64,000 nucleotides of DNA from Henricia sp. BOLD:AAB3569 (Eukaryota; Echinodermata; Asteroidea; Spinulosida; Echinasteridae). Below, piece after piece: positions 32,957 through 63,338 of the stretch (the stretch's first letter is position 1; every line of letters starts with the position of its first letter). The stretch lies in NCBI GenBank assembly GCA_037783545.1, contig JBBELK010000009.1:3162001-3226000 (forward strand), given 5' to 3'. Made by a program: the position numbers and the translations under genes. The notes beneath the pieces were generated by a model that had not been told where the DNA came from, searched no databases, and saw nothing but the letters and a program-made list of their open reading frames with translations.

Positions 32957-33067
32957 TCAACGGAAGTTTGGTGCTGCGACCTTGAGACACGTTTGACCAG
33001 CATCAGCGGCTAAGATTAGGGGGTTGGTCATGTGGTGCTGAATGAGAAGTACTGCCGAGTCAAAAAC
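32957..33067 (-). CDS. SH2 adaptor, last exon (SH2 C terminus, stop)
   Basis: After the acceptor TTCCTCAG the frame reads VFDSAVLLIQHHMTNPLILA, then ADAGQTCLKVAAPNFR and TGA (32957-32959). This is the helix B and final strand of an SH2 domain (pattern LIxHHxxxPLIL). 111 bases, joined in phase 0 to the preceding exon ending LYKESEQ. Confidence 0.85.
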   Translation of the reverse strand, partial: VFDSAVLLIQHHMTNPLILAADAGQTCLKVAAPNFR

Positions 33068-36000
33068 CTGAGGAATTACAGCGAAGTAACAAAGAGAAAA
33101 TGAGTGACGTCACATTCCGACTCTTACAGAGTCTTCGTCATTCTAAGGGTTAGAACGTGTTTCGTCGAAACGTAGACGAGGTACTCAGCCGACTTATACA
33201 TAGGTTGGTTTTTATACCACTCACTTATCCGGGGAATCCCGATCAAGGCGCCTACATTATCATCACCCTGATCATAGGGCTTCATTAAATCACTCCATAT
33301 ACCATCTCAGCTCCCTAGGGAGTATACAGCCCCAGCTGCCTTAGGCGCTCAACGGCTAATCAAACACATCAACTTTCGCTGCCCTCTCAGGTACCCATTT
33401 TGCTCCTGGGTGGAGAGAAGCAATGCGTGGCAAAGAACCTTGCTTAAGGGTACACGCACCATGGAAGGGCGGGGCCGGGATTCGAACCCACTACCTTTGG
33501 AACTAACCCAGGTTTTGAATACGATCGAATAGACCGCTCCGCCACAGTACACCACAGATAGACATTATCTGTGATCTTACACACAATGTTTTTTTTGGGG
33601 GGAGGGGGGTTGGAGGGGTGGTTTGAGGGGAAGGGGGATGAGGGGTGGGGGAGGGGGAGGAGGCGGGAATGGGTGCTGAGGGGAAAAAAGTGGACACTTT
33701 ACCCATCTCACCTGTTCACTTTCCTTGTACAAGCCCAGCGCGTACTTGCCGTCCTCGCGGAGTCGTATGTGAAGATTCCTGACCTTGTTATCATACCACA
33801 GAGACAGGGAATAGGGGACTTCCCCACCTCCCTTTGTGCTGTTCCTTACTACAAATGCACCATCCTACAAAAAGGTCAAAAAAAGAAAGATCTTTTAAAG
33901 ATAGTATATATGATTGTTAAACTGTTACAAATAGTTTTATTCCCCCGTGTGATTGAAGGTATGCAGGATTGAAACCAACCTAAGCAAAAACCAGCTCCGT
34001 ACTTCGTCTAACTTTTGAGAAAACAGTCCAAAAAGGGTTTGCAGTCATTTCGCCCCAAAACCACTTCGCCCTGAACCATTCCGCACTGAACCAAGGCCTG
34101 TGCACGAAGTTTTTTGGGGCGAAGTTGCATTTGGGCGATGTAGTGTTTGGACGAAGTAATTTGAGGCGAAATGGCACTTAGGCGAAATGGTTTTGGGGCA
34201 AATTGAATTTTCGTCTCATGAGACGAAAACTAATTGTTTTACTCATTTCTCAAAGACTATAGCACTTTAGACAAAACTATTTCAGGGGAAGTTTTCTACG
34301 GTCATCATGTTTATATTGTGTAAGTTAGGTGTAAATCTGTGAACATTTCTGATTTTCGAGATTACCAATGATGTATACTGCCTTTAAGTCGAGCAAAACA
34401 ATTTAACTTCAGACGAATTGAAAATTGGACACACATTTTTCACCTCCCTAAGCAAAAACAAAAACAAACCAAACACAGTAGGTATGTATGTATTTGCTTA
34501 GGGACTCCCACTCCAACATAACGCAAATCATTTGCAAATTCATTAATGCCACCGAAGGGCCAACGAATGACATTTTCCCGACAATGGCCAAACAACAACT
34601 GCTGCACCACACAGTGCATGCAAGCACAGAACACAAATATAAACTTTGCGCCAGCGGCCATGACAGGGGGCAGGTTTTTAGATCCACAAAGTGCCTACTT
34701 GTGACAACATGACTGCCTCCTGTCATGGCCGCCCGTGCAAAGGCTCTATAGGAAGCACACATACCAATCGGGCACTGCTTCTGTGCAGGGTTGGTCGACT
34801 GACACAAATACATGTATCATGATTGGCTATTTTAAACTCTTTACTCTTAACCTCTTTACGATTATGAGTCATTTGTTATGATTAAGCAATTGGGGGATGT
34901 GCAGCACAGCTGAATACGGGGGCGGGTGTCAAGTGAAATGTCACAAAATGCATTGCTATTGTCAAAAAGTGCATTGACACATTCCCATCCTCCAAGCAAA
35001 AGGGGAATGCACTGCATGACAATAGCGGTGAATTTTGTGACATTTCACTTTCCACCCACCCCTGTATTCCGCTATACTGCACATCCCCCAATTGATTAAT
35101 CATAACAAATGACACATCACTGTAAAGACAGGGCTTTCCAATGATACCAAATTCAAGGGAAATGATTTAGTAACAAGAGAGAAATTGACAGTCAAACTTG
35201 ACTTTCCGAACTTTTTTGATGAGTTTAGATTAGCACTGTATACTCACTTCTTCTGTAGTGATTCTACATGTGATTGTGCCTTTAATACTGACATCCCGGT
35301 TTTACGGTAAATGACACTTTTTCAAAATCACAACTTACAGTTTTGGCTTGTTTCAGGATCTGCACTGCCTCTTCTCGTTTTAGATCTGCGTCGTACCATG
35401 GGAAGCCTGTCATTTCATTCTGTGGTCATTTTGGAAAAAAAATTAAACAGAAACATAACAGGAAAATTGAGTACAAATTAAAGGATTTTGCACCATTAAC
35501 ATGTGGAGTCCTGTGGCGGAACGGTCTAGTGGATCGTATTCAAAACCTGAAAAATTGCTCCGGTTTATGGTGTACGGTCAGACTGGCCCGAATTGTTTCA
35601 GCGCACACAATGTGGTCCGATGATCCGATACATCGCAAAGGTGTACGGCGGGTTTTACACTCTGCTAAAGCCTAGCGTACATCGACCTTGCAACTGGAAG
35701 CAACTCAACTGATCAGTTGCTGGCATGTGTGCGCAACGTGCGCAACTAGCGGCAACTGGGAGCATCCAGCCATGTCTACATTTCCAGAGCGCGCACATCG
35801 ACACGGCAACTCGGTAAGGCCTAGCATACATTGACCTTGCAACTGCTGTTGATGTGCGCGCATGTGATCAGACACACACGTGCAACTGACAGGAACTAGT
35901 TGCAAGTACGCATACTTCGACGCAACCGACCGCAACTGGAGACAACTAGTTGCCAGAAAGTAGAACATGAGCAACTCGCTGCAACTGGGATTTTTCAAGT

Positions 36001-39000
36001 TGCCAGTAGTTGCAAGTGCACGTACATCAACCTTTGTAAGCAACTGATCAGTTGCTCTCAATAAACCCTTTCACGGTTATCGACGCCATCTTGTTTACGG
36101 GGCACTTCGAACACGCGTTGCCGTGTGCGTGTGCGGATCATAACTAATGCACAGTGACCTAACAATGCAGTCGTACATGTTCCGCGCACGCAGACAGCAA
36201 CGCGTGTTCGAACTGCCTCGTGAACAACATGGCGTCGATAACCATGAAAGGGTTTATTGCCGCGAGTTGCTTCTAGTTGCCGGAAACATCAGTTGCTACT
36301 AGTTGCAATGTTGATGTACGCTAAGCTTAAAGTCTATGAGCATCATAGTTACACAGGCCTGCTTCTTACCTGTTTTGGGGGCTGAGGCATGGGTCTTGGT
36401 ACTGGTTGAGGTTCAGGGGGAGATCGTTGTGGTTCCTCTCGCTGTATGGGCTTTGGGAGTTCTGGATGGACTCTCTGAGATGAAGCTGTTAGGGAGAGAA
36501 TGTACGGAAATAAAAGGTCATAATTCATGTCACACTACATTCAAACGTCTTCCAGACATACAGAGCAAACTTACAAGCTGGCAGAGATCATAGGTACGAC
36601 CATTGACAGTTGACAGTAATGCACTTAAAGGCAGTATACATCATTGGTAATCTCGAAAATAAGAAATGTTCACAGATTTACACCTAACTTACACAATATA
36701 AACATGATGACCGTAGAAAACTTCCCTTGAAATGGTTTTGTCTGAAGTGCTATAGTCTTTGAGAAATGAGTAAAACAATTAGTTTTCGTCTCATGAGACG
36801 AAAATTCAATTCGCCCCAAAACCAATTCGCCCCAAAACCATTTCGCCCATGTGCCATTTCGCCCCAAACCACTTAGCCCGAGTGCCATTTCGCCCAAATT
36901 ACTTTGTCTAAACACTACATCGCCCAAATGCCACTTCGAAGTGGTTTTGGGGCGAAATGACTGCAAACCCTTTTTTGACTGTTTTCTCAAAAGTTAGATG
37001 AGGTACGGAGCTGGTTTTTGCTCAGGTTGGTTTTAATCATGCATATCTTCAATCACACAGGGGGATAAAACTATTTGTAACACTGTATACTATCTTTAAG
37101 ATTGAAACAAGGACTCGGGACTCGGACTCGTCCTGCTGAATTTTGACCCAAGGACTCGGACTCGAAAAGTGTGGACTCGACTACAGCCCTGCTAAAAAAG
37201 TTATCTCTTCAGAACAACTGAAACTTATTTATTTTATTTTGAGACCAGACAAAGGTATTTTCTGAAAAATATGGTCTGTGTTGTCAAAATGCCTCCTTTA
37301 CTGTGGAAAGACTCACATGCCAATTCATGCAACAGGAGATTGCAACCTCCACGATCATGGTACCTGTGCCCTTGAGAAAGGCACTTAAACCCAATTGCTC
37401 CATCCTTGGGAAGGGATGTAATACCGTTGTTCCAGTGTGTTGTGTAATGCACTTTAAAGACTGTAGAGCACTCTTTCATGAAGAGTAAAGGGATTACCAG
37501 GTATCTCTTGCCGTCGGCTGCCAATGGCACCACCCACCTATGTACCTTGATGTTCAGTTGGAAGACAATGGTAAGCTTTATGCAATTCAAACACTTTAAA
37601 GGAGCTTGTCCAGATCACATTTTTAGGCCTACCATTTTTCCCATGGGTTTGAGATTTTGATTATTTGTCATGTTTTTCTCATTACCATTCTTAAATTTTG
37701 TGCTCTCAATTCGTATATTTTTAAGGATATTGTAAAAAACCTCCGATGGCAGCGATCACATAAACCTTTTAGCTTCTGTTTTCTTCCCATGGACAGTATT
37801 TCGGGGAGGCATTTTATGTGATTGTTAGGTCAAAGCGAAATCCATTTTCTGTAAAAATCTGAACAAGCACTCCTTTAAATAAAACAATAAAATAAAGTAA
37901 TTATTTTATGGGCTACATTGTACGTACGCGTAAACTTCTTGATGGTTTTGGAATCCTTTGTTGGAATAGGAGGAATAGGTTTGGATTCAATCGGAGAAGG
38001 CAGCTCTGGGGGTACTCTGGGTCTCAGATTCGGAGTGAGTCTTTTCTGGGGCGTTGGCGAAGATTGAGTGCTGGGCTGGGCTGGCTGCGTGCCGCTGGGA
38101 AGAGTTGTTCTGCTGTTTACCGACGATTGGGAGTCTGTTTCCTGTGGATTGGATTTCAACCACAACGGCCTTGTCCCTGCAGGCGGTTTACTCACGACTG
38201 GAATGTTCTGGTTTGTTCTGGTTTGATCTGGTTTGTTCAGATTTGGTCTGGGAGACAGATTTGGTCTGGGAGTCAGATTTGGTCTGGGAGTCGGATTTGG
38301 TCTGGGAGTCGGGTTTGGTCTGGGAGCCATCCCGGGTCTCCTTGGTTCCGGATCTTCGGCGGTTCGCTGAAACTGTTTCAGCCTCATTCCGATGGTCCCG
38401 CTGCCGCTACCAGAATTCTCGTCTTTTTCTTGAGTGGGCGGTTCCGGATCACGCGGGATGGTCTTTGGTAACGGGGGCGGTTGTTTGGAGGCGATAGGTA
38501 TGGGTGGCCGAGGAATGGTGTTACGATTTTCGCCGCCGTTGCTCATTACATGATGAATGGGCGATCTTTCTCGGATGGGCGATCTTTCCCGTCGGCTTGC
38601 TTCGACTTTGTTGACCACCTCGCGGATAACGGAGGGCGGCGGGTCGGGAAGCACGATGGGGAAGCCTTTATCTTCTATTGGGGTACGTGACGCGGGAGGG
38701 CGCGACGGGATTGGTGGTGGCGCCTCGTCTGATGTCAGTGCTGAGGTGAATTTGAGTTCGGGGGGCTTGGCTGGTCGTGGGGGTGGCAGTCCACTGCTTG
38801 GGTCGGTGGGCAGTGGTGCTGGGGGACGACTTCCGGGCGACATGAAATCTCTTGATTTGATAGTTGGAGTATTAAATGGTCTCTGGGGTTGAAAAGGTGT
38901 TCCATCTGATGCAAGTAAGAGAAAGACATGAAACAATAGGTAAAACCAGAGCTCTTTTCGTCCCAGAACACAGTGCTTTTTGCATATGATGGTCAAGATT

Positions 39001-42000
39001 CTCGAGTTTGACAGGGATTTCATAAAATTGGTCAAAAATGTATCCCAACATACTTCAATCTGAAAAAAATTGAAAGATTTGGAGTTCTTGTCAAATTCCA
39101 TTTCCAACAAAACAAATGTGCGTAGATTTGGCTCAGTAGTTCTCAAGACTTATATGAGCGTTCATATTATGTTTTAGCCAAAATTATCAAAATTTGGGGG
39201 CCGTATCTCCAAAACCTCTGACCCAACTGACCTAAAATTTGAGATTTGGTGCTGTGGGATCCCAATCAATAACTATACCAAGTTTTAACAAAATCTGATC
39301 TGGGGCCAATTTCATGGAGCTGTTTAACAGTCAATTTTGTGCTAACGGAGGCTCCAGCTATTTCATGCAGACCGTAACCATAAGCACTGCTAAACGTTTG
39401 CTAGCTTCAAAGGACAATTTGCTAAACATTAGTGATGCAACAATGCCAGTTTCTAAGTGAAACAGCGTTAACGTTAGCACAACTTTTCTGCTACAGTAAG
39501 CAAACGTTTTCAGCTAGTGCTTAAGCAGCACCATGAAACTAACCCCTGGTCGGGCTTTCCAGTAACGTCACCCCTTCCAACCACTATTTTGGTTGTCATT
39601 TTTCATGACCCACGTGGCTCGAGTGATAACCGGCTAAAAAAGCAATAAAAGCGCATTGGTTGCACTTACCTCTGTTACTTAACCTTGCTTTATGTCGTTG
39701 CGCCATGGCTGTTGTATCGATAATGATAAAATGTATTTCTTCAGGCTAAAAATTTTGATCAAGCAAAAGCACTTTCGTTTTTACAAGCTGCTCAATAATT
39801 TGAACGTATCGCAACGCGCGCGTGCGGCATCTTCAAATGAAAGTACGCTGGTGAGTATTTTTTACGCGTGCCCATGTGCGTCTGTATGTGCGCGCGTGTA
39901 CGCGCGTGACCGTTGACCACCAAACATTACAGGATGTTCTACGTCACGGAGAGCAATCAATTTGGTGATTCGACACGGAATGATTCATTTCCTTTCTGTG
40001 CGTGCCACGTGCAGCAATCTTACCTGCTACAGGTACAAGATATTCCTCCTCCGGCTCATCCTGTTAGACAAGACAACAAGTAAATACGATGTGTTGTAAA
40101 TAAGGAAAGTGATATTAAAATGACATTTACTTGGAAATTACTGATGATTTTGGGAAATGGCAAATTACATAATTGTGTCCTCGGGTTCAGGGCGAAGTGG
40201 TTTTGGGGCGATATTACTGCAAACCCTTCTCAAAAGTTAGACGAAGTACGGAGCTGGTTTTTGCTCAGGTTGGCTTTAATCATGAATATCTTCAATCACA
40301 CAGTGGATAAACCTATTTGTAACAGTTTACCAATCATGTATACTATCTTTAAATTACATGTTTTAGATGTAACAGCTACACATAAAAGGTTTGTTACTTT
40401 ATTAGAAAGTTTACCTCTTGTTCCATGATGGGAGCTTCATAATTTGGCTGGTTAATTTCTGCAAATAAATAGCAAATGATACTTTATTTTTTAGTACATA
40501 AAACCAATTTATAGGTTTTATCTTACAGAGACCTGGAGTATTTGCACAGTGAAATTGTGGACTCGGAGTCTCACTCGAGTCATATCATCTTAAGACTCTG
40601 AAATTGAATTAGGCAATAAAAGTGGGTTTGTTCAGTCTTAAACATGTACTTTTAAAACCGGCTAGGGGCCTGGACGAGTGATAATGACCAGAGCCGCAAG
40701 GCGAGGGCCATTGAAGGCACGCCTGTCCATAGCATTACGAGTAGTTAATAAGACGCACGTGATTTTTATTTTTTGGCATAGTTTGTGACGTCAATATCCC
40801 TCCGAGATTACCCTTACTCATGCCAGCTCTGGACCAGCCTTACTTGTACTCAAAACACAACATAATTTTGACTAATAACATTTTTCTAACAAAAATCGAA
40901 ATTCAAGAAAACAAAATCCAAGAACCAGAATATGCATTACTAAAAAGCTGTATTACTCGAAAGTGGAATTTTACTGATTCGCCACAATGCGAAAAATGCG
41001 ACGAATTGACACGCAAAACAAGGCATTTGCTGAAAACGTTTAAAAAAAGGCAATTCTGACAAAAACTCTACGACGATTTTGTAATTGACTACTAAAGTGA
41101 AAACGTCACCCTTTGTGTGTTGCCATGGTTTTTGGGTCTACACTAAAACCAGTGAACTGTTTCCCTGCGCTATACCAATGGCCGTTTCAAATTACCAGCG
41201 AATGTTTAGACCCAATTACCATGGCAACTGACGTCACACTTTAGTAGTCTATTACAATTTCAACTCAACAGGTTAAACATTCTTACGTAAAGCGGGCACT
41301 TCATAGTCTTCTTGCTGCTCCTGTTGAGAATATGGTGAAAGACACACAGAGAGAGATTCAATACCGGATGGTATAAGTCCAGAAATTCACATGTACATTT
41401 TGGAGACTTTTAAGGGCTTGTGATGTTTCACGTATTCAAGTTGTTTAATTTTAAACATTTAGTGTGGTATGGTATGTCACGAAAATGGCTCCAATTAGAT
41501 TTTCGTGATAAAATTGATTTTTTTTTTGGCTTTATTGGGTCGATTTGAGGTCAAATAGTGGTAAAATGGTAGGGTTCAAATTTTCCGACCCCTGGATGAT
41601 CCCTAGGGTCTCCAGTTCCTCCTCCTCCAGACTGACCAGGCGCATATTTTAGGCAATAATGAACTGATTTACACAATATTGGGGTCTTTATAGATGTTTT
41701 CGAGGGCGCCAAGTCCATTTATGATACTTTCAAAGTGACCAGAAGTGGCTATCACCGACTTCTGGTGGAGAACTCTTGTATACCATTTTCATCCACTTCA
41801 GATTAAAGGTCATTTTCACACCACCCTCTGAACATTATTCTACCATGGAGCCATATTGCTGAAGTTCACAGGTATTAGTCATTCAAACACATAAAACATT
41901 TTAAAACTGGTTCGGTGGATACTGCCTGCCTGTCATCATAAATTCACCCATGACTCTGTGTACCCGACTGCTTCATGTAAGCATCAACCCTGGTCGTCTT

Positions 42001-54000: not shown

Positions 54001-57000
54001 TGCCTTTGCTATGGAGCTGCGTATTTCGTGGCACGAATGTGGTGCGCGCGCATTGCTGACGAGCCTGTGCCTTTAATTGGCTAGGCATTACTACTTTGAC
54101 TGGTTCCAAACAAAACGAACGTCTCACCTCTTCATCATCGGAAAAATCACTGTCCCAACCCTCATCTGCAGAAGAAAAAAAATAAAAACATGAAAAATTT
54201 GTCCACTATAATTTTATTCAAGTTTACAAAAGTTCTGCAAGATCCCATCAACCAATCGCAAGTCTGACAACATAAATGCAAAAGACTTGACTTGAGATGT
54301 TGTTGCTATGTAATGTGACCGGGCACACGCTGCATGTGTGAAGTACAGAAACAATACCGTGTTCACAGTAGGAGAGAATGGCATAAAGCAACCAGACCGT
54401 TGGTTGTTAGGCATTGGTGTGCACCACGTAGCAACAACAGCATATGTGACTTTAAACTGCACCTCCATTTAAAAGTAAAGAAAGGTTACACAGAAAAAGG
54501 ATAACTAAATTCTCAACCTCACACCATGTTTACACTGGTCCGGAGCTCAGGATCAAGATTGATCCCCTGATAAGAATGTGTCAGTGTTAATCGCGTTTAC
54601 ATTCTGTAGTTGATCTCGAGCGCGGCGCCAGAAGTTGCAGTCAAAGGTCATGCTGTATGCGTGCATGTACAGAACAAAAAATGTGCATGTACATGTACAG
54701 TGTGCAAGGACACTTGAATTTCGTGGGCTTTTCCCCCACAACGGCTGTGGAGTAGATGCGGTGATGATTAATTGCTTATCTAACCGCAAACTGATCCTGA
54801 TCTCGGGGTTCGACCCTCTGCCGACGCGAGACCAAAATCTGATCCGGGGGCCAATTTAGTCCCGAAAGCATTTACACTCAGTTTGTGATCCGGAGCTGAT
54901 CCCGAGCTTGAGATCAAGTGTAAATAGGCTTTCAGACAATCTTTCCACATGCCTACGTACCGTCGCTGCCTTGGTCGTCCCTTGATGCCTGTCGGTTTGT
55001 CGCAGGTCCCCTGTAGTCTGGTTTCGGTGCCTGTGGTGGTTTCTTCTCAGTTCCCCATCTACAGTTTCATTATGAAAGAAATTTGTCATGGTTCATAAAT
55101 GTCACGGTTAACCAATTTGTGGAGAACCGTGGCCGAGTGGTTCGGGTCGCTGAGGCACAACACTGAGGTGAAAGCTTTGTGTCACCTGCGCCCTTGAGCA
55201 CAGCATTTTTACCCCTTCCGCCGCGTTCACCCTCTTCCCCCATCCCCCACCCCTCCAGGTTCCCCTAGCTGCACCAACCACGACGCACGGGGTTGACCAA
55301 CAGGTCTCCTCCACCCGGCCCCTTAGGGTCCTTGGCACTGAGGATCCGATCCGCCGGATCCAATAGGGAGAAGCGAACCACGTGGTCATAGGGGCGCAGC
55401 TGGTGCACTCAGATCAAGCAGGTAATAACCCTCCCCACATGGTCTATCCAGCTGTACCCGAAGATGCGGCGAAGGGAAGTAGTCAGGAAGGCGTCCAGTC
55501 ATTGCCTCAACCCACTGGTCAAGGTCAACGTTTCACTTGCGTAAAGCAAGACAGGCAGGACCAGCGAGCAGAAGACTCCGACTTTCGTCCATCTGCTCAA
55601 ATGCCGAGAGCACCAAGAGCATTTTAACCACAATTAAAAGGAGTGTAAAGCTGTCCATAAACCCAAAAAATAATTTCAAAAAAATTTATTTTTCATTCAG
55701 ATTGCTCACTGAATGTTACTTCTTTTCTTAATTTTTTTTTGAAAACTAACATTTTGAAATAGCATTTATGCTATTTCAAAATGTTAGTTATAAAAAGAAT
55801 CAGTTATAACTGATTCTTTTTATAAATCACGTGATCAACAACAACACTTAAATGCATTTTTCTTCCCCCAGGAGCAAGAAGAGAAAAGTTTGTCAAAATC
55901 TGAAAGTGTTTTTACTTAGCAGTAGCTAAATCAATCTTCTGCAAATAAAACGGCTCAATTTCACGGCAGATAATGCAGCTTAGCAAATCTCTGTGCTTCG
56001 GAAAAACACCAGTCAAAAGTAGTAGACTACCAAAGTGTTACGTCAATTGCCAAGGTAACTGGATCAACACATTCACTGGTAATCTAAAACTTCCATTGCT
56101 AAAGCACAGGGAAACAGTTCACTGGTTTGTTGTGTAGACCCAGTAGCCTTTAGCAACACACAAAGGATGGCATTTTACAGATGACATGAGCTGTTAACAT
56201 GTTTTTGTAAACTACATGTACAGTTCTGTACCGAGCAGTAGGCCAAGCTGTATCATAACTGTGACCCGATGTTCAGTTTCTAGCACTTGAGTTCAAATGG
56301 CAATAAAAGCCCACATTACCCTGGAAATGAGATCTTAGACTTCTTCCCAGTCCTCCGATTCTCCTTTACTTTGTTTATTTGTCTCCACAACATCCTGAAA
56401 TATAACAAAAATTAAACATGTTAGGCGCGAGGTCAAAACAGAAACGGTCTGTATACCGGTAAACTATTCAATGTAATCCCTCTTCAAATCGTTTCTCTGT
56501 TGACATAAAACCGCGTGCCGGTTTGAACGTAATCATTTCCAACTTGCTGGGTTGGTCGATGATTGACAGGTTTACAACTAGCCGCCTGCACGAAGGGAAC
56601 AAAAGGCTGCTTCTGGCCGACGACTTCAAAGGGAGCCCCCCGACCCTCCAGCTGGGCGCACCTCGGGGTATGAATAGGTTGTGGTTAAACACCCTTGTTC
56701 GGGCGGTCACGTGATAAACAGTGGCAGCGAGTCAGCCAGGAGTAGTCCCCTTATACTGATACGTATGTAATGTGGACAGACCTTATCAGGGAAAATTTGT
56801 ACACAGCCTACAGGGTTTACAGAAATGTATGTTGTAGGACTTTTTTTCTTACTCCTTGGGGTAAAAGTTATTTCCTCGGTTTAGCTGGATAATTTAAAGA
56901 TAAAATTAAGACATTTGAAGTGAACTTGGACCGACATGTAAGATCTTGTATGTCACAGAAATGTACCCCATGTGGAAAGACCCATATACAATGTGCATAT

Positions 57001-60000: not shown

Positions 60001-62240
60001 GTGCGAATATGCCATTTTGGGAGTCAAATAATGCTGAGTCATTGTGGAAGCGATGTGCGTGCGCGTTGTGTCTCTCTCTGGTGGGCGCAACGCGGTTTAG
60101 TCCACCAATGGGAGCCTCATCATAGCGCGTTACGCGCGCTATGGACACACACAACGCGCACGCACATTGCTTCCACAACGACGCGGCATTGTTTTACTCC
60201 CAAAATGACGTCATTGGCACGAGCTCAATACAGCGAGCCACTAGCAGTGACTTTTCGGCCCGAAGTACACATTTCTCAAGCCTTGCGTGACCGATAGCGG
60301 CATTTCTGTTGTTTCACAACTTCAAAACTACAGAGTGTTAGCTGAAAAGGCTAAATTCCAACAGCGGGAAAACTACAGTTTGCATGTAAATTTTGAAAGT
60401 ACATGTACGTGCATGTCAACACTCTCATTTCTCAAAACAGTAATTACTAATACTAGCCTGACTCATCAACATCCACTCAAAACAAAATGTCTATGGCGCT
60501 ATACCACAAACGGATTAAACTGTTAAATGACTACAAGCGTTTGTACTTACAAGGCTGGATCACTCTTTCCTGTTGGCATATTAGGGTAGAGTTTCCGTAG
60601 TCTACTCTCGGACAACTCCTGAAACAATTGGTTCCCCCGAGGGGATAACAAAATAGGAAAGGTCTAGAATATCAAAAAGACAACTTATTCAGAATACATG
60701 CCTTTACGCAGGATGTGGTGTATACTATAGTTGACTATCCCGGGTAGATGTCGTTTGGATTCCAAGTACCGTACAGTTTGTGACACACAAAAATAACACA
60801 ATGTCCAGGAAGTGTACTCGATATGCAACTTCTAAATTTGATGTGATGAATGTTATTGTTCTACACAACGATGTGACAGTCCCGCATTTCTAATTATCCT
60901 TTCTGCACATCGCTTTGCACGCACACGGCAGCGAATGGTTGATTGGCACGGCATCATATAAATTATATATTCATTTCATTGTTTCTTTTATAGGGGATCA
61001 TACGAAAGAAGAAGAAAATTGTTCCTTATTGTACGTTATTTTCAGTTGTGAATTATGCTCAAACTATTTTCACTTTTGTTCTTTTCCGAAACTACAAGTG
61101 ACTTTGAAAATGTAAACAGTTCCATCATTTTAGTAGCCCACAACTACATGTACAGTTGAAGTCAGAAGTATAAAACAAGTTCTGTATGCAACCAAGTGTT
61201 AAAACCGGTGTGCTTACACCATTTTTGTAACAGTCTTTACTAAATTCTTGATTTTGTGGAATTCGATCCTCACGGGCATGCAGTACTTAAAACATAGCTT
61301 GTACACCTTGCAATGGTTCGGGTAGTCCTGTATACCATTTTGGGTGATGATGGTAGTGGTGTACATGTATTTATACTTCTGACTTCAACTGTACAAATTA
61401 CTTGGAGATAGAAGGCATTAAAGAATACATGCGTAATCCCTGCATTTACAAAATCGTATTATTTGATGCGACAGGTGACGCAAAAACTTGGACCCCAAAT
61501 ATACGTGCTTTTACGGTTTCCCTAAAAATTCCCTGCACGCAGTGTATGATGGGACGAAATTCTAGAATACCACACATGAGCGCTAAGTGTACAAACAAAT
61601 GGGATTTTGCAGGAGAGCTAAACTCTCTGCCGCTTCAAACTCGTAAACATGGCAAATTTGTGTAACCTGGTAATAGAGCTCAGATACAGATTCAACCTAC
61701 TGTATATCTGTTTTGCGATTATATTGGTGTCTACGAGCAAAATACTGACTTGATTGTCACAAACTCGGTGCACACGCTAGGTTCGGCGTATCAGTTGCCA
61801 GTGCGTGCAGTCTTGATCAGTTCAGTCGGCGCGGCGTGCATGCCACATAATGCCGCGCCTAGCAAGTGTACCGAGTTCGAAACAATCGAGTCAGGGCGCT
61901 CTTTTTATGCTAGGCAAATAAAATATGGCCCCGTTGGAAGGGCAAAAAAGGGGAAAATACAATATGAAGCGCACAACAAAAAAGCGGAAATCCGCTAAAA
62001 ATCAGAGATTTTACACCCCTGTAATTTACAGTTCTGTGTTGGCAGGCAGAATGATAAAGTTTAGAAAAATGGAGACATGAAACTAAAAGCGATATTACAT
62101 TACCTATATAATGTATGAATTGGATGATAAACGCATTATATTTTTCTTAATGTATTGTTATTTCAGGAAGTACTTACAAGTAGCTCTTTGCCATCGATGT
62201 TATACTTCTGCAGCGGTTCGATAAACTCATAAAAACCGAC
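32957..62240 (-). CDS. SLP-76/BLNK-like adaptor: SAM, YxxP array, proline-rich, SH2
   Basis: Twenty-two exons were joined; all phases agree and the total of 2505 bases gives 834 codons plus stop for the visible part. Model residues 1-68 are the second half of a SAM domain (YNIDGKELL, LRKLYPNMPTG, LWRQINKVKENRR); 102-114 an acidic Trp motif (EGWDSDFSDDEE), as in SLP-76; about 80-355 carries seven YxxP motifs (YRGP, YLAP, YEVP, YDVP, YEVP, YEAP, YLVP); 355-720 is proline-rich with PxxP and basic ends suited to SH3 binding; about 728-825 is an SH2 domain with PWY, the phosphotyrosine-binding Arg in GAFVVRNS, and the final LLIQHHMTNPLIL. The family (LCP2, BLNK, CLNK) are cytosolic scaffolds phosphorylated by Syk/Src-type kinases. 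The order SAM-Tyr-Pro-SH2 fits LCP2 best. The first exon(s), with the SAM start, were not found. Confidence 0.85.
33226..33553 (-). repeat. tRNA-derived SINE, family A
   Basis: On the minus strand: GTACTGTGGCGGAGCGGTCT head, CGATCGTATTCAAAACCTGG, a perfect B-box GGGTTCGAATCCCGGC, then a body with CACCCAGGAGCAAAATGGGT and GGGGCTGTATACTCCCTAGG. The same body is seen at 43733-43975 (minus) and 50034-50285 (plus). Confidence 0.75.
33595..33690. repeat. G-rich low-complexity tract
   Basis: A purine-rich, G-run-rich stretch (GGGGGGAGGGGGGTTGGAGG and similar) lies just downstream (in gene sense) of the SH2 exon donor at 33711. On the coding strand it is C-rich; on the plus strand it could form G-quadruplexes. 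Confidence 0.6.
33712..33864 (-). CDS. SH2 adaptor exon 21 (SH2 core)
   Basis: Encodes DGAFVVRNSTKGGGEVPYSL, SLWYDNKVRNLHIRLREDGK and YALGLYKESEQ. The Arg of FVVRNS is the conserved phosphotyrosine-binding residue; PYSLSL, KVRNLHIR and YALG match SLP-76/BLNK SH2 domains. 153 bases, phase 0 at both ends, donor GTGAGA. Confidence 0.95.
33895..34387. mobile_element. TTAA element, GGCGAAGTGG family, copy 1
   Basis: Ends TTAAAGATAGTATATATGAT and ATGATGTATACTGCCTTTAA are inverted, with TTAA flanks. Inside are repeated CACTTCGCCC / GGGCGAAGTGG words and TTTCGTCTCATGAGACGAAA. A copy in the opposite orientation lies at 36625-37099; partial copies at 40178, 42450 and 62268. Confidence 0.7.
34866..35115. 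mobile_element. Foldback MITE, GTCATTTGTTATG ends
   Basis: Left GTCATTTGTTATGATTAAGC and right TGATTAATCATAACAAATGA are inverted; the arms continue through GGGGGATGTGCAGCA and GTCACAAAATGCATTGCTAT. About 250 bp. Located in the intron between the two SH2 exons. Confidence 0.65.
35339..35419 (-). CDS. SH2 adaptor exon 20 (SH2 start)
   Basis: Encodes NEMTGFPWYDADLKREEAVQ and ILKQAKT. PWY and KREEAVQIL are the first strand and helix A of the SH2 domain (family pattern PWYxxxxxRxxAExxL). 81 bases, phase 0 both sides, acceptor GACCACAG, donor GTAAGT. Confidence 0.92.
35505..35590 (+). repeat. SINE family A head fragment
   Basis: GTCCTGTGGCGGAACGGTCT then AGTGGATCGTATTCAAAACC matches the tRNA-like head at 33553 and 50034; the body is missing. 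Confidence 0.55.
35668..36336. mobile_element. GTTGC-rich element, copy 2, with nested palindrome
   Basis: Left AAGCCTAGCGTACATCGACC and right ATGTTGATGTACGCTAAGCTT are inverted ends; the interior is AGTTGC/GCAACT-rich like 25812-26292. A separate palindrome (36060-36258) interrupts it. Lies in the intron before SH2 exon 20. Confidence 0.65.
36060..36258. mobile_element. Nested foldback element, AAACCCTTTCACGG ends
   Basis: Left AATAAACCCTTTCACGGTTA with TCGACGCCAT and right ATGGCGTCGATAACCATGAA with AGGGTTTATT are inverted; the interior pairs CGAACACGCGTTGC with GCAACGCGTGTTCG. It is inserted in the GTTGC element. Confidence 0.7.
36370..36485 (-). CDS. SH2 adaptor exon 19 (proline-rich linker)
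   Basis: The only frame that stays open and fits both neighbours encodes SSQRVHPELPKPIQREEPQR, SPPEPQPVPRPMPQPPKQ. The proline-rich linker leads directly into the SH2 domain. 116 bases, phase 1 in and phase 0 out, donor GTAAGA. Confidence 0.85.
36625..37099. mobile_element. TTAA element, GGCGAAGTGG family, copy 2
   Basis: Ends TTAAAGGCAGTATACATCAT and CTGTATACTATCTTTAA; orientation opposite to copy 1 at 33895, from which it is 2.2 kb apart. The interior has six or more TTTCGCCC/CACTTCG words. Confidence 0.7.
37285..37590 (-). repeat. SINE family B body fragment
   Basis: ACTCATGAAAGAGTGCTC-type and GGGATGTAATACCGTTGTTC phrases, with GTGCCCTTGAGAAAGGCACT, correspond to the bodies at 13553 and 25150. 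The tRNA-like head is degraded. Confidence 0.45.
37596..37878. mobile_element. TTAA/AAAGGAG element, copy near the proline exon
   Basis: Starts TTAAAGGAGCTTGTCCAGAT and ends CTGAACAAGCACTCCTTTAA; TTAA at both ends. It ends 50 bases from the donor of the large proline-rich exon (37928). Confidence 0.7.
37928..38905 (-). CDS. SH2 adaptor exon 18, large proline-rich exon
   Basis: This single exon of 978 bases encodes about 326 residues, strongly enriched in Pro, Ser, Arg and Thr, starting GTPFQPQRPFNTPTIKSRDF and ending PIPPIPTKDSKTIKKFT. Several PxxPxR or RxxPxxP-like SH3 ligands are visible (IPRPPIPIASKQPPPLPK, RPPAPLPTDPSSGLPPPRP). A five-unit TPRPNP repeat lies at 38241-38330. Acceptor TTGCATCAG; donor C followed by GTACGT, which leaves phase 1 as the next exon requires. 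Confidence 0.92.
38241..38330. repeat. Coding minisatellite, 18 bp x 5
   Basis: The plus-strand unit ATTTGGTCTGGGAGTCGG repeats five times with few changes; on the coding strand it encodes a hexapeptide of the form TPRPNP. Repeat number could vary between individuals and change the number of SH3-type ligands. Confidence 0.85.
39301..39546. mobile_element. MITE with GGGGCCAATTTCATGG ends
   Basis: Left TGGGGCCAATTTCATGGAGC and right GCACCATGAAACTAACCCC are inverted; the interior repeats GCTAACG and GCTAAACGTTTGCTAG words. The copy at 49007-49157 has the related end GGGGCCGATTTCACTAACG. Confidence 0.55.
40024..40060 (-). CDS. SH2 adaptor exon 17, YLVP motif
   Basis: A 37-base exon encoding DEPEEEYLVPVA. 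The acidic run before Tyr is typical for a Src/Syk-family substrate. Acceptor GTCTAACAG, donor GTAAGA; ends in phase 1 and joins the proline exon to form Asp. Confidence 0.85.
40178..40352. mobile_element. GGCGAAGTGG-family element, partial
   Basis: CAGGGCGAAGTGGTTTTGGG, then GTTAGACGAAGTACGGAGCT and the right end CATGTATACTATCTTTAA are shared with 33895 and 36625; the left part is missing. Confidence 0.55.
40415..40458 (-). CDS. SH2 adaptor exon 16, YEAP motif
   Basis: A 44-base exon encoding INQPNYEAPIMEQE. Acceptor TTATTTGCAG, donor GTAAAC. Phase 1 in, phase 0 out. Confidence 0.85.
41088..41255. mobile_element. ACTAAAG/ACGTCA MITE, copy 3
   Basis: Left CTACTAAAGTGAAAACGTCA and right ACTGACGTCACACTTTAGTA are inverted; shares TGGGTCTACACTAAAACCAG with the other copies. 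It lies directly downstream of the donor of exon 15 in gene sense. Confidence 0.65.
41287..41320 (-). CDS. SH2 adaptor exon 15, YEVP motif
   Basis: A 34-base exon encoding EQQEDYEVPAL. Acceptor ATTCTCAACAG, donor GTAAGA; phase 0 in, phase 1 out. Confidence 0.85.
42212..42401 (-). CDS. SH2 adaptor exon 14, His/Gln/Pro-rich
   Basis: One frame is open across the whole 190 bases: LSPRHEARPLPTLPPSQSPS, HWQQHQQVEPQTWAGSREVS, QAHQRSSPSPRHFQRQTDIA, VEE. It is low-complexity linker, not a domain. It uses acceptor CTACCGCAG and donor GTAAAA, and its phase (2 in, 0 out) is exactly that demanded by exons 13 and 15. Confidence 0.75.
42450..42746. mobile_element. GGCGAAGTGG-family element, partial
   Basis: Contains GGCCCAAAACCACTTTGCCC, repeated CACTTCGCCC words and the right end ATCATGTGTTCTACCTTTAA. 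Adjacent on the right (42746-43030) is a degraded part of the large GGGTCATT element (TTTCAAATTCAACACGAAAA to CACTTCATGGAATGACC). Confidence 0.55.
42746..43025. mobile_element. Partial copy of the large GGGTCATT element
   Basis: AATTTCAAATTCAACACGAA, CACCACTTTGTTGAATGTTT, CCCCCAAACAGTGTAAACCA and CACTTCATGGAATGACC match the right half of the element at 44487-45083. Confidence 0.6.
43090..43109 (-). CDS. SH2 adaptor exon 13, 20-base micro-exon
   Basis: Only 20 bases lie between acceptor GAATTTTACAG and donor GTAAGT, encoding ARSVSP plus the first two bases of Leu. Its inclusion is what brings exons 12 and 14 into the same frame, which is good evidence that it is real. Confidence 0.7.
43137..43182. 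repeat. 20-bp tandem repeat
   Basis: The unit TTTTGTGAAAGAGAAACAAG is repeated twice with a partial third. Confidence 0.7.
43215..43365. mobile_element. Foldback MITE, AATGCACTAACCAG ends
   Basis: Left GAAATGCACTAACCAGCTAG and right CACTAACTTGTTAGTGCATTT are inverted, with the inner pair CTAAGTGAATTTT / AAAACTCACTTAG. Confidence 0.6.
43733..43975 (-). repeat. tRNA-derived SINE, family A, head lost
   Basis: Body phrases on the minus strand: CTCTGCCATAAAATTGCCTC, CACCCAGGAGGAAATGGGTA, GTTTGATTAGTCCCTG and GGGACTGTATACTCCCCATG. It abuts the donor of adaptor exon 12 at 43972, so the SINE's head has been lost or overwritten there. Confidence 0.6.
43973..44010 (-). CDS. SH2 adaptor exon 12
   Basis: A 38-base exon encoding LHPDYPKRPQPG, with a Tyr not followed by Pro at +3. 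Acceptor TTTTTACCAG, donor GTGAGT. Phase 1 in, phase 0 out. Confidence 0.75.
44150..44412. mobile_element. CGAGCTCGG-family element, short copy
   Basis: Two head-to-head pieces: GACCCTGAGATTTTGGTCTC at 44153 and its reverse at about 44283, with GATCCCGAGCTCGGGATCGA in the middle and AAGTGTAAACAGGGTG at the right end. Confidence 0.6.
44487..45083. mobile_element. GGGTCATT element, 597 bp, 4-bp target duplication
   Basis: Ends GGGTCATTCCATGAAGTTGA and the reverse complement near 45083; flanked by ATTT on both sides. The terminal GGGTC and the 4-bp duplication link it to the smaller GGGTCTTTCTATAAA family. No transposase frame. Its right end is 26 bases from adaptor exon 11. Confidence 0.8.
45109..45168 (-). 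CDS. SH2 adaptor exon 11, YDVP motif
   Basis: A 60-base exon encoding PEDCDEIYDVPHEEDVNSN. An acidic context precedes and follows Tyr. Phase 1 at both ends, so it could be skipped or duplicated without frameshift. Donor GTGAGT. Confidence 0.88.
45775..46030. repeat. G-rich minisatellites
   Basis: First a 20-bp unit (GATTGGGAAGGGTGGGTGTG) repeated about four times (45775-45860), then an irregular array of GGGGTGGGGGAAGGGGTGGG words (45905-46030). Open frames across it are Gly/Trp-rich artefacts. Confidence 0.8.
46631..46771. mobile_element. TTAA hairpin MITE, copy 2
   Basis: TTAA-flanked hairpin; arms AGGCACAGGCTCGTCAGCAA and TTGCTGACGAGCCTGTACCT, with ATTCGTGCCACGAAATACTC paired to its reverse. 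Confidence 0.8.
46806..47115. mobile_element. MITE with TTCACACTATCGC ends
   Basis: Left GAGTTCACACTATCGCGGAA with AAATCACACT and right AGTGTGATTTTTCTGCGATA with GTGTGTATCC are inverted. Interior GC-rich, GCGCAGC/GCGCGG words. Confidence 0.55.
47181..47246 (-). CDS. SH2 adaptor exon 10, YEVP motif
   Basis: A 66-base exon encoding HVEEEFDQTYEVPSEQMNAS and Y. Phase 1 at both ends, like exon 11. Acceptor TGCCTATAG, donor GTAAGC. Confidence 0.88.
47680..47780. repeat. Dispersed repeat shared with 61920-62010
   Basis: GGAAGGGCAAAAAAGCAGAA, then GAGCACACAACAAACAAAGC and AATCCGCTAAAAATTTGAGA closely match 61937-62010. Nature unknown. Confidence 0.45.
48058..48537. mobile_element. GGGGTCACACGA-family element
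   Basis: Starts GCCGGGGTCACACGAAAAAT and ends AATTCGTGTTA; contains repeated GATTGTGATACGATTGTAAT words and a GC-rich CACGCGCGTG centre. It matches the nested copy at 14385-14832. Confidence 0.6.
48536..48735. mobile_element. Foldback MITE, GTGGCCACT family
   Basis: Left TAAAATCTGTCTATAGTGGC and right GCCACTGTAGACAGGTTTTA are inverted; the inner phrases ACTGGCCACTATCAACAGGT and GGCCACTATAAGCAGGTGGC repeat. It ends about 35 bases from adaptor exon 9. Confidence 0.65.
48771..48831 (-). CDS. SH2 adaptor exon 9, YLAP motif
   Basis: A 61-base exon encoding SSCASGREDDSSMLYLAPNT. Acceptor CATTGACAG, donor GTTAGT, phase 0 in, phase 1 out. Confidence 0.8.
49007..49157. mobile_element. MITE with CCGATTTCACTAACG ends
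   Basis: Left GACCGATTTCACTAACGCTT and right TAACGTTAGTGAAATCGGCC are inverted; the interior pairs GCGATGATCGC on both sides. Confidence 0.65.
49262..49510. repeat. GGGCTGGCCCAGGGTTGGGCCA minisatellite
   Basis: About 240 bases of 11-bp units such as GGGCTGGCCCA, GGGTTGGGCCA and GGGCTGGACCA, in higher-order alternation. Degenerate CTGGCC words continue to about 49680. The open frames through it (repeating Gly-Pro-Gly-Leu type) are artefacts. Confidence 0.85.
50034..50285 (+). repeat. tRNA-derived SINE, family A
   Basis: GCATGGCGGGGTGGTCCAGT head, TGGATCGTATTCAAAACCTT, the body GGGGCTGTATACTCCCCAGG and GGAGCCCTATGATCAGGGGT. Opposite orientation to the copies at 33226 and 43733. Confidence 0.7.
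50366..50740 (+). repeat. tRNA-derived SINE, family C
   Basis: The head GCGTGTGGTCTAGTGGGTAT, then GAAGCGGGACTCCCAATCGG, AGGTTGTGGGTTCTAGCCCC has tRNA form with A- and B-boxes. The body carries CTGTGTCCCTGGGCAAGACA, a phrase typical of V-type and CORE-like SINEs, and GATAATAATAATGG further on. Confidence 0.7.
50862..50972. repeat. Short palindrome, GAATACGGCATCATGT
   Basis: GAGCGCGAGTGGAATACGGC with ATCATG on the left is answered by CATGATGCCGTATTCCATGA on the right; an inner pair GTCCCATAT / ATATGGGAC. About 105 bp foldback. Confidence 0.6.
51087..51158 (-). CDS. SH2 adaptor exon 8 (alternative longer end at 51042)
   Basis: After the acceptor TTTTTGCAG the frame reads SSNPLFRAELSQILARKQKA then RSYP, with a donor GTACCG at 51086. 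A second donor GTAAAA would extend the exon to 51042 and add VPSSLRHELRRQLHL; both keep phase 0. The first part looks like a short amphipathic, basic helix. Only the long form completes a YPVP motif. Confidence 0.65.
51356..51490. repeat. Fragment of the TTGTAGGGCAGTTTC palindrome family
   Basis: AGCTGCCATCTTGTAGGGCA then GTTTCTTTGTTCTGTGAGGT matches 11385-11440 and the palindrome at 52183-52330. Confidence 0.5.
51623..51672 (-). CDS. SH2 adaptor exon 7
   Basis: A 50-base exon; in the frame required by both neighbours it encodes RVTSYTLSSTSSATNL, a Ser/Thr-rich linker. Acceptor CTCCTTGCAG, donor GTATGT; phase 1 in, phase 0 out. Another frame is also open, so the assignment rests on phase. 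Confidence 0.65.
51805..52475. mobile_element. Inverted-repeat element with nested foldback
   Basis: Left AGGCCCATTTCAAAG with TGCCGTGTCG words and right CGTTTGAAACGGGCCTT are inverted; GCACGGTGTAAGCACGG, GAAGCACGATGTTTGAAAC and CACGGCACAAGCACGGCG are related internal words. The foldback at 52183-52330 interrupts it. Confidence 0.55.
52183..52330. mobile_element. Foldback MITE, GACCGTATCGAATAGCC ends
   Basis: Left AGACCGTATCGAATAGCCGC with CATTTCGTGGGGCA and right ATAATGGCGGCTATTCGATA with CGGTCT are inverted; the inner right part AACAAAGAAACTGCCCCAC is the reverse of the phrase at 11390 and 51378. Confidence 0.7.
52620..52846. mobile_element. GGGTC-terminal MITE, copy 3 (left end degraded)
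   Basis: The right end CCCCTAATTTATAGAAAGAC is intact; the left end is damaged (GGTCTTTCTTTAAAAAGTGT). Internal TTGTACTTTATGTACTCACT is shared with the other copies. Confidence 0.7.
53023..53074 (-). CDS. SH2 adaptor exon 6
   Basis: A 52-base exon encoding IAEFEPTDSPSSQGNTH. Acceptor GCTTTTGCAG, donor GTAAAT; phase 0 in, phase 1 out. Confidence 0.8.
53228..53930. mobile_element. Tc1/mariner-like remnant with long palindrome and nested MITE
   Basis: Left end TTACAGGGTGTCCTTAAAAA. Arms at about 53361-53467 and 53804-53912 are inverted (CATGGCCATTATGAAAGGTG against CACCTTTCATAATGGCCATG). The sequence 53690-53770, read on the minus strand, gives RRRCELCIERNGGHVA, similar to the C-terminal end of Tc1/mariner-class (IS630-type) transposases. 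A MITE at 53466-53638 sits between the arms. No intact transposase. Confidence 0.5.
53466..53638. mobile_element. ACTAAAG/ACGTCA MITE, copy 4 (divergent)
   Basis: Left AGACTGCCGAAGTGAATACG with TCACC and right GTCACACTTCGGCTGTCTAT; internal TTGGCTCTAAACTAAAAATC and GGAGCCAATTGCCATGGCAA. The copy has diverged but keeps the order of the family. Confidence 0.55.
53936..54076. mobile_element. TTAA hairpin MITE, copy 3
   Basis: TTAA-flanked hairpin, arms AGGCAGAGGCTAGTCAGCAA and TTGCTGACGAGCCTGTGCCT, with GCCACGAAATACGCAGCTCC and its reverse. It lies 52 bases from adaptor exon 5. Confidence 0.8.
54128..54165 (-). CDS. SH2 adaptor exon 5, acidic Trp motif
   Basis: A 38-base exon encoding EGWDSDFSDDEE. 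SLP-76 and BLNK carry comparable acidic W-x-x-x-F/D-rich stretches between the N-terminal domain and the tyrosines. Acceptor TTCTGCAG, donor GTGAGA; phase 1 in, phase 0 out. Confidence 0.85.
54523..54934. mobile_element. CGAGCTCGG-family element
   Basis: Left CACCATGTTTACACTGGTCC with GGAGCTCAGGATC and right GATCCCGAGCTTGAGATCAA with GTGTAAATAGG; middle GAAGTTGCAGTCAAAGGTCA is shared with 19520 and 20570. It ends about 27 bases from adaptor exon 4. Confidence 0.65.
54961..55058 (-). CDS. SH2 adaptor exon 4, YRGP motif
   Basis: A 98-base exon encoding WGTEKKPPQAPKPDYRGPAT then NRQASRDDQGSD. It contains the first YxxP motif and a short proline-rich run. Acceptor AAACTGTAG, donor GTACGT; phase 2 in, phase 1 out. 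Confidence 0.85.
55122..55210 (+). repeat. SINE family B head fragment
   Basis: GAGAACCGTGGCCGAGTGGT then TCGGGTCGCTGAGGCACAAC, followed by TGCGCCCTTGAGCAC, matches the tRNA-like head of the copies at 25150 and 13553. Confidence 0.5.
55250..55620 (-). pseudogene. LINE reverse-transcriptase C-terminal remnant
   Basis: On the minus strand a broken frame reads KVGVFCSLVLPVLLYASETL, then LDAFLTTSLRRIFGYSWIDH, and further on DHVVRFSLLDPADRILSAKD. These match the region after the RT catalytic core in non-LTR retrotransposons (patterns VLPTLLYGSETW, LRRILGISWRDR, GHVxRMDPxDR). Stops and the missing core show it is dead. Confidence 0.7.
55730..55850. repeat. Adjacent perfect short palindromes
   Basis: CTAACATTTTGAAATAGCAT is followed at once by its reverse complement (ATGCTATTTCAAAATGTTAG), and then TATAAAAAGAATCAGTTATA by TAACTGATTCTTTTTATAAA. 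Two hairpins of about 40 and 45 bases in tandem. Confidence 0.75.
56018..56180. mobile_element. ACTAAAG/ACGTCA MITE, copy 5
   Basis: CTACCAAAGTGTTACGTCAA on the left; interior GGATCAACACATTCACTGGT and ACCCAGTAGCCTTTAGCAAC. The right end (GGATGGCATTTTACAG) is degraded. Confidence 0.6.
56320..56394 (-). CDS. SH2 adaptor exon 3 (end of SAM domain)
   Basis: In the frame demanded by its neighbours (phase 2 in, 2 out) the 75 bases encode MLWRQINKVKENRRTGKKSK and ISFP. LWRQINKVKENRR corresponds to the last SAM helix of SLP-76 (LSQEINKNEERR). The alternative frame stops inside. Acceptor CAGG-type TTTCAG, donor GTAATG. Confidence 0.82.
58566..58707. mobile_element. TTAA hairpin MITE, copy 4
   Basis: TTAA-flanked hairpin, arms AAGGCATAGGCTTGTCAGCA and TGCTGACGAGCCTGTGCCTT; loop at AGCAAAGGCATGG. 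Confidence 0.8.
58806..59062. mobile_element. GGGTC-terminal MITE, copy 4
   Basis: Ends GGGTCATTCTATAAATTTGG and its reverse complement; AGCT on both sides (4-bp target duplication). The terminus is intermediate between the GGGTCTTTCTATAAA family and the larger GGGTCATTCCATGAAG element. Confidence 0.8.
60005..60210. mobile_element. Foldback element, GC-rich centre
   Basis: Left GCCATTTTGGGAGTCAAATA with ATGTGCGTGCGCGTTGTGTC and right GACACACACAACGCGCACGC with GTTTTACTCCCAAAATGAC are inverted; inner pair GGTGGGCGCAACGCG / CGCGTTACGCGCG. Confidence 0.7.
60551..60618 (-). CDS. SH2 adaptor exon 2 (SAM domain middle)
   Basis: A 68-base exon encoding ELSESRLRKLYPNMPTGKSD and PA. It corresponds to SAM helix 4 and the following loop (SLP-76: LTENDIQKFPKLRVP). 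Acceptor TTGTTTCAG, donor GTAAGT; phase 0 in, phase 2 out. Confidence 0.87.
61151..61393. mobile_element. Tc1-type MITE with Sleeping Beauty-like ends
   Basis: TA then CAGTTGAAGTCAGAAGTATA at the left; TATACTTCTGACTTCAACTG then TA at the right. The fish Tc1-like elements (Sleeping Beauty group) start CAGTTGAAGTCGGAAGTTTA. No transposase inside; about 239 bp between the TA sites. Confidence 0.75.
61920..62010. repeat. Dispersed repeat shared with 47680-47780
   Basis: GGAAGGGCAAAAAAGGGGAA, GCGCACAACAAAAAAGCGGA and AATCCGCTAAAAATCAGAGA correspond to the stretch at 47697-47775. Confidence 0.45.
62178..62240 (-). CDS. SH2 adaptor exon 1 of the visible part (SAM domain)
   Basis: A 63-base exon encoding VGFYEFIEPLQKYNIDGKEL and L, phase 0 at both ends. 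KYNIDGKELL is the SAM signature (SLP-76: KKYHIDGARFLNL). Acceptor TTTGCTCACAG, donor GTAAGT. At least one upstream exon with the start codon and the first SAM helix is missing. Confidence 0.9.
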
Positions 62241-62821: not shown

Positions 62822-62932
62822 GGCCTGTCTGCATTGGACTTTTTTGGGAAAACTTACCGAGACGATTGGTACTTTTCCCATTTTTAATCCAGTGCGGACA
62901 GCCTAAGAAGTTTTCCTCTCAGTAACTCCGCA
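62822..62932. mobile_element. TGTCCGCATTGGAC-family copy
   Basis: GGCCTGTCTGCATTGGACTT and CCAGTGCGGACAGCCTAAGA are inverted ends; GGGAAAACTTACCGAGACGA matches the copy at 22240-22440. Confidence 0.55.
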
Positions 62933-63040
62933 CACCACTCCCCCCACCACCACTCCCCCCACCACCACTCCCCCCACCACCACTCCCCCCACCACCACTC
63001 CCCCCACCACCACTCCCCCCACCCCCCCCCCCCCCCCCCA
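62932..63040. repeat. ACCACCACTCCCCCC minisatellite and poly-C
   Basis: A 15-bp unit CCCCCCACCACCACT is repeated about six times and ends in a run of about 18 C. The overlapping Gly/Trp/Val frames are artefacts. Confidence 0.9.
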
Positions 63041-63338
63041 TTTAATGAGGTCTGCAATTTGGAATCGTGTACAATACAAATTAGAGCAGTCGACAAAAAA
63101 ACTAAGTCCAAACAAAAGAGGAACAATATGGGACGTCCGCTGTGGGAGGTGGGTACAAGACTGTATGTGTACGCGTCACGTGCACATGGATGAGCACTTT
63201 TCGTTCAGCTACAATGTATGGCGGATATTCAGGGAAGGAGACCTTAGTTACATGTACCTCATTGGTCTATACCCAACATACATTTACCCAATACTGTACA
63301 GTATGCAATGACATACAAGTGTGGATACACATCTATTA

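Follow-up and report, generated by a model that had tools for sequence, protein, structure and literature searches.

Adaptor proteins of the SLP-76 kind have already been described in invertebrate deuterostomes. In the amphioxus Branchiostoma belcheri, bbslp76 encodes a SAM domain, a WW domain, a proline-rich region and an SH2 domain, and the corresponding urchin, squirt and lamprey proteins were also modelled (PMC5431462). In sea stars, another study describes a Patiria miniata B-cell linker protein-like sequence (XP_038070561) with SAM and SH2 domains and residues numbered to 759; its SH2 region was obtained from eggs by RT-PCR and Sanger sequencing, and a second protein without 38 residues was reported (PMC11593052). 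A search of the SLP-76/BLNK literature with sea urchin and echinoderm, covering few subscription papers, returned no further paper on echinoderm SLP-76. Additionally, lamprey BLNK is reportedly the subject of a published paper (PMC4850452). With an amphioxus and a sea-star relative thus already in the literature, the gene described below belongs to a familiar type, and its value lies in sound annotation rather than in surprise.

The window analysed here is a whole stretch of 64,000 nucleotides from the genome of the sea star Henricia sp. (G000:C9:3162001-3226000; assembly of 740.7 Mb in 2104 contigs). Along its minus strand, from 62240 to 32957, a gene was recovered as 18 exons by a combination of exon scanning, phase chaining and resemblance, and one further exon outside the window brings the total to 19. 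The 18 window exons consist of an in-phase block of three, which encodes part of a SAM domain, and an in-phase block of 15, which encodes an acidic Trp motif, five YxxP tyrosines, a proline-rich region, an SH2 domain and a stop codon ending at 32957. The original prediction had placed the SAM, Trp, YxxP, proline-rich and SH2 elements in this very order on one strand, and the 18 exons follow that order. This gene is real, composed of many exons and protein-coding, and there is little doubt in our assessment that its product is a cytosolic adaptor belonging to the SLP-76/BLNK/CLNK family, built from a SAM domain, an acidic Trp and five-YxxP stretch, a proline-rich linker and an SH2 domain, which is the most likely reading of the locus. 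For an echinoderm gene of the SLP-76/BLNK type, the exons are thereby mapped almost completely, down to the initial coding exon beyond the window.

Training of the exon scan used 28 loci of this genome that encode kinases or SH2 domains, with synonymous codon use taken from their 5016 codons, and exon scores combined splice consensus with amino-acid compositions, at standard or analyst-set values. Phase-matched chaining was run between hand-picked anchor exons, and the SAM and SH2 ends were read by resemblance. The reading frame used was the best-scoring open frame in 17 of the 19 exons, taking the better of two composition tables, and the sole open frame in nine; the exceptions were the exon starting at 44010, where another frame scored about equally, and that starting at 43109, where another frame scored higher.

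The first half of the SAM domain, together with the ATG, was found 3 kb past the window end, in a first coding exon on the minus strand at 67120-67046 in extended coordinates (MSKKSATYDEALYWTVIDVGDWLQQ). It is followed within the window by minus-strand exons at 62178..62240 (VGFYEFIEPLQKYNIDGKELL; in 0/out 0), at 60551..60618 (ELSESRLRKLYPNMPTGKSDPA; in 0/out 2), whose acceptor is weak (-0.2), and at 56320..56394 (MLWRQINKVKENRRTGKKSKISFP; in 1/out 2), which encodes the last helix of the domain and a basic tail. These four exons yield 93 residues, matching the Pfam SAM_2 profile at 33.5 bits (cut-off 20.5) and SAM_1 at 30.7 bits. The window exons alone gave no SAM_1 or SAM_2 match in Pfam, and SAM_PNT remained below its cut-off. 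Thus, the second half of a SAM domain that had been proposed for the window is borne out by three exons, but it cannot be called by Pfam from the window alone. Exon 56394-56320 was picked by SAM resemblance, not by chaining; it is read in its sole open frame with a coding score of -0.5, and with it the SAM_2 match, which otherwise stops at profile position 47, reaches position 66 of 66, a gain of 1.6 bits. A reading of this exon in frame 0 (ESEDWEE) was rejected, given its very poor donor (-5.3) and a SAM_2 match that ends at profile position 47. Against the PDB, the SAM domain of LCP2 (2eap) aligns with residues 9-82, nearly the whole domain, with an E value of 0.0017 and rank 22 of 58; the closest PDB sequences are not LCP2, and the 21 entries above 2eap include ETV6 fusions and SARM1.

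The SAM block stops at 56320 with two surplus bases, where the exon starting at 54165 calls for one, and therefore a further exon with entry 1, exit 1 and a length of 3n+2 is required between them. No convincing linker exon was found there among the AG..GT and AG..GC intervals with entry 1 and exit 1, in a search region where at least 790 of 2141 bases are repeated elsewhere in the genome. The best-scoring candidates, 55058-54961, 55010-54961 and 55399-55251, were rejected, their acceptors being weak (-3.2, -1.9 and -1.9, respectively) and their positions in or beside repeats. Within the same intron, the segment 54932-54520 recurs in at least 37 other places and 55616-55239 in at least two, with copies 80-87% alike, and the peptides near these repeats resemble what we take to be a LINE remnant.

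With this junction not closed, the SAM block is tied to the remaining exons only by strand, a spacing of 2.2 kb, order and family resemblance, and both blocks are presumed to belong to one transcript. Two same-strand neighbours, one encoding a small SAM protein (67120-56320) and the other, with its start near 54165, an independent SH2 adaptor, would also account for phases that fail to meet and for a linker exon that was not found. This arrangement is, however, very unlikely, since the order and spacing fit the SAM and SH2 proteins of amphioxus and Patiria, and the assembled length (93 + 670 = 763 residues, to which the missing exon would add) is close to that of the Patiria protein, 759 residues. 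Additionally, the SAM block ends in phase 2 and the next block begins in phase 2, so that neither end looks like the end of a gene. A single gene spanning both blocks is the preferred reading.

The block of 15 exons, all on the minus strand, opens with a 38-base exon carrying the acidic Trp motif (54128..54165; EGWDSDFSDDEE; in 2/out 0), which is the downstream side of the unclosed junction, and continues with an exon at 53023..53074 (IAEFEPTDSPSSQGNTH; in 0/out 1). Two YxxP exons follow, with YEVP at 47181..47246 (in 2/out 1) and YDVP at 45109..45162 (in 2/out 1; alternative acceptor at 45168). The next three exons, a 38-base exon without motif support at 43973..44010 (LHPDYPKRPQPG; in 2/out 0), a 20-base exon at 43090..43109 (in 0/out 2) and a 190-base Pro/Ser/Gln-rich exon at 42212..42401 (in 1/out 0), were placed by their splice sites and phase. 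Between 45162 and 40458 the lowest-penalty chain differs from the model presented here, as it adds 43881-43866 and shortens the 190-base exon to a form starting at 42331, and therefore these three are the least certain exons of the second block. Three further YxxP exons are found downstream, of 34 bases with YEVP (41287..41320; in 0/out 1), of 44 bases with YEAP (40415..40458; in 2/out 0) and of 37 bases with YLVP (40024..40060; in 0/out 1).

The small exons of 20, 34, 37 and 38 bases that had been proposed are thus present in the model, the last size occurring twice. The accompanying expectation, that automatic prediction would miss them, is weakened by the Patiria model XP_038070561, which holds both the SAM and the SH2 domain; the XP_ prefix denotes a RefSeq protein that was predicted automatically.

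Five of the seven tyrosines of the linker lie in YxxP motifs, with a separate exon, 34 to 66 bases long, for each motif, and the acidic region contains 23.6% D+E in 191 residues. To place this count against chance, exons of 25-90 bases scoring 5 or more were scanned across 30001-64000: YxxP exons occurred at six of 20 candidate acceptor sites on the minus strand (five of these six are in the model, the sixth being 48831) and at one of 15 on the plus strand, and in 30 first-order Markov sequences their mean was 0.03 of 6.8. The number of YxxP exons is therefore more than chance.

The original prediction counted 22 exons, all in phase. The phases do agree within each block, but neither the count nor full phase agreement was upheld, as 18 exons were found in the window and the phases disagree at 56320/54165. 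The lowest-penalty chain (penalty 5) adds 51672-51623, 50216-50097 and 48831-48771, which with a linker would make 22 exons, and at a guess this may be the earlier model, which came without an exon list. Exon 50216-50097 was rejected, as it sits in a repeat found in at least 46 other places. The other two are kept as candidates: each has a single copy and together they fit the phase, with coding scores of about zero, and exon 48831-48771 in its fitting frame reads YLAP after an acidic run; provided that 51672-51623 is an exon too, it may supply a sixth tyrosine exon. The pair would add 37 residues beyond the length of the Patiria protein. On the minus strand, 48831-48771 contains YxxP in two frames (YVVP and YLAP).

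The proline-rich part contains 25.2% Pro in 365 residues and many PxxP motifs, predicted to bind SH3 domains. It is encoded largely by a 978-base exon at 37928..38905 (minus strand; in 2/out 1), which has a weak donor and is single copy in the assembly save for one 54-base match (37960-38895 searched), followed by a 116-base exon at 36370..36485 (minus strand; in 2/out 0), where another frame is better under general amino-acid frequencies. The only RxxKP core (RPAKP) lies in the 978-base exon, and the residues around it match the Gads-binding consensus only in part. None of the 15 second-block exons contains the Itk-binding motif DYEPPP, and no WW domain was found in Pfam searches of the two assembled pieces with E values up to 1, which returned only SAM and SH2 families.

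The SH2 domain is split over three minus-strand exons, at 35339..35419 (NEMTGFPWYDADLKREEAVQILKQAKT; in 0/out 0; weak acceptor), at 33712..33864 (in 0/out 0), which encodes the phosphotyrosine-binding Arg in FVVRNS, and at 32957..33067, which ends in the stop codon. From the acidic Trp exon to this TGA, the block reads 670 residues, the first split codon being counted as Asp, and contains no internal stop, in accordance with the original prediction. A decayed pseudogene, or open stretches joined by chance, would be compatible with the one unclosed junction and with the weak splice sites at donor 37928 (-0.3), acceptor 35419 (-2.1) and acceptor 60618 (-0.2), but 15 phase-matched and stop-free exons, two domains that exceed their Pfam cut-offs, the excess of YxxP exons and the intact FVVRNS make such an origin very improbable. 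No haplotype or paralogue copy, which was sought for a selection test, was found in the assembly.

In the joined protein, which had been recommended for comparison with SAM and SH2 models, the SH2 domain matches the whole Pfam profile at 48.7 bits (cut-off 21). Among the best 60 of 158 distinct PDB sequences matched, the closest SH2 domain was that of the B-cell linker protein BLNK (2eo6, 59.9 bits), followed by that of PLC-gamma-1 (49.8 bits). When the BLNK SH2 domain was used as the query against 19 SH2 loci of the genome, representing 13 distinct places and a subset of the genome SH2 matches, the joined window SH2 scored 59.4 bits and the next 26.7 bits, a lead of 33 bits that favours the window because its SH2 domain alone was exon-joined. 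In an exon-by-exon genome search with BLNK, another SH2 locus (on contigs C155 and C219) came first at 27 bits and the window was third of five at 22.8 bits, probably because its SH2 domain is split over three exons, and the same split probably explains why the window is not listed among the 49 genome matches to PF00017. No close paralogue of this SH2 domain was found in the assembly, the next of 10 matches after its own three exons scoring 23.3 bits. Identical or nearly identical SH2 and kinase scores were observed on contigs C155/C219, C103/C24 and C204/C105/C216, with the peptides inspected for C155/C219, and this suggests that some haplotypes were left uncollapsed in the assembly or that recent copies exist.

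In a tree of 17 SH2 rows, whose bootstrap is not fully settled and in which 13 of the 16 reference sequences were entered by hand, the window SH2 domain groups with those of BLNK, LCP2 and CLNK with a support of 96/97, and a placement outside this clade, which had been named as evidence against the assignment, was not seen. The three vertebrate proteins hold together (94/95) with the window outside all of them, so that the sea-star gene seems co-orthologous to the whole trio; probably it is the one counterpart that LCP2, BLNK and CLNK had before they were duplicated. A one-to-one orthologue of LCP2 (SLP-76), with BLNK and CLNK split off earlier, would explain the presence of a SAM domain, as in LCP2; yet it is unlikely, considering that the tree joins the three vertebrate proteins to the exclusion of the window and that the window SH2 domain scored higher with BLNK (59.7 bits) and CLNK (52.3 bits) than with LCP2 (40.0 bits), the next in the tree set being ITK (32.8 bits). 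The earlier assignment to the SLP-76 type is therefore right as to architecture but too specific, since the SH2 domain lies outside the three paralogues and nearer to BLNK and CLNK by score.

Under the pre-duplication reading, a fuller proposal, to which we give even chances, is that the gene keeps the ancestral state, in which one SAM-YxxP-Pro-SH2 adaptor stood for LCP2, BLNK and CLNK together, the SAM domain being later lost in BLNK and CLNK, and that its single-exon YxxP motifs are putative spliceable cassettes. BLNK and CLNK are not known to have a SAM domain. If this proposal is true, YxxP cassettes spliced in or out could change the partners of the adaptor.

From what is known of the family, a working scheme can be proposed. 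A Src- or Syk-type kinase would phosphorylate the YxxP tyrosines, which could then dock proteins with SH2 domains, for instance Vav, Nck/Crk or Tec-type kinases, while SH3 proteins (PLC-gamma, Grb2/Gads) might bind the proline-rich part. The SH2 domain of the adaptor would anchor the complex to a phosphorylated partner, the SAM domain would help the complex to cluster, and the outcome would be the activation of PLC-gamma, possibly in coelomocytes or in the egg. An exon at C46:2779430 of the same genome is, judging by resemblance, presumably a PLC-gamma-like C-SH2 exon. In sea-star eggs, the calcium signal at fertilisation depends on Src-family kinases and PLC-gamma. The Patiria study models this signal on T-cell activation and reports the BLNK-like transcript in eggs, where transcripts for Grb2, PLC-gamma, Cbl and Syk also occur, whereas the BLNK-like protein itself was yet to be identified there (PMC11593052). 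The SLP-76-type adaptor may thus be regarded as a candidate scaffold in the egg calcium signal and in coelomocytes. The gene also bears on how lymphocyte signalling was built from pre-existing components, which the amphioxus study had begun to address.

As to the neighbourhood, the next recognised gene downstream, on the same minus strand, is casein kinase I alpha, found as four exon pieces over 28657-13284 whose best PDB match is 5fqd (325.7 bits). The window also contains low-complexity long open frames at 62888-63193, 49185-49607 and 45743-46048 (WWGEWW, GPALAQPW, PPPLP), which resemble tandem repeats more than genes.

The original prediction that the host is an invertebrate deuterostome is confirmed by mitochondrial code and gene order, which identify it as an echinoderm with high confidence and as a sea star with good confidence. 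In the mitochondrial contig C2104 (16,221 bases), COX1 reads the conserved STNHKDIG only if AAA encodes Asn, and ATA fits Ile (code 9); a run of tRNA genes for Leu, Gly, Tyr, Leu and Asn lies on the minus strand, with that for Gln on the plus strand before cox1. Frames that we take by resemblance to be nad1 and nad2 lie on the strand opposite cox1. For the sea star Acanthaster planci, a mitochondrial study gives trnY-rrnL and trnP-trnV as inverted (PMC7396427). A second contig, C955 (48,576 bases), has three copies of COX1 that lie 16,221 bases apart; here mitochondrial genomes are joined head to tail in a concatemer that is probably an assembly artefact.

Compared with known systems, the sea-star protein resembles vertebrate SLP-76 (LCP2) in having a SAM domain, an acidic YxxP region, a proline-rich region and an SH2 domain. 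The sea-star protein has one RxxKP core, as in the Gads site of vertebrate SLP-76 though with flanks that match in part, and the tyrosines of vertebrate SLP-76 lie in YESP, YESP and YEPP, versus the five motifs YEVP, YDVP, YEVP, YEAP and YLVP found here. It differs from LCP2 in that its SH2 domain scores lower with that protein than with BLNK or CLNK. Vertebrate BLNK and CLNK, which have YxxP tyrosines and a proline-rich linker, are the closest by SH2 score, and they are not known to carry a SAM domain, whereas a SAM domain is present here. Amphioxus SLP-76 is described with a WW domain adjacent to its SAM domain and with a conserved DYEPPP motif; the exons found here contain neither, although both come from invertebrate deuterostomes and share a SAM domain, a proline-rich region and an SH2 domain in the same order (PMC5431462). 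The likeness extends to Patiria XP_038070561, compared by its published description: it is also a sea-star protein, with an N-terminal SAM domain, a C-terminal SH2 domain and a similar length (PMC11593052).
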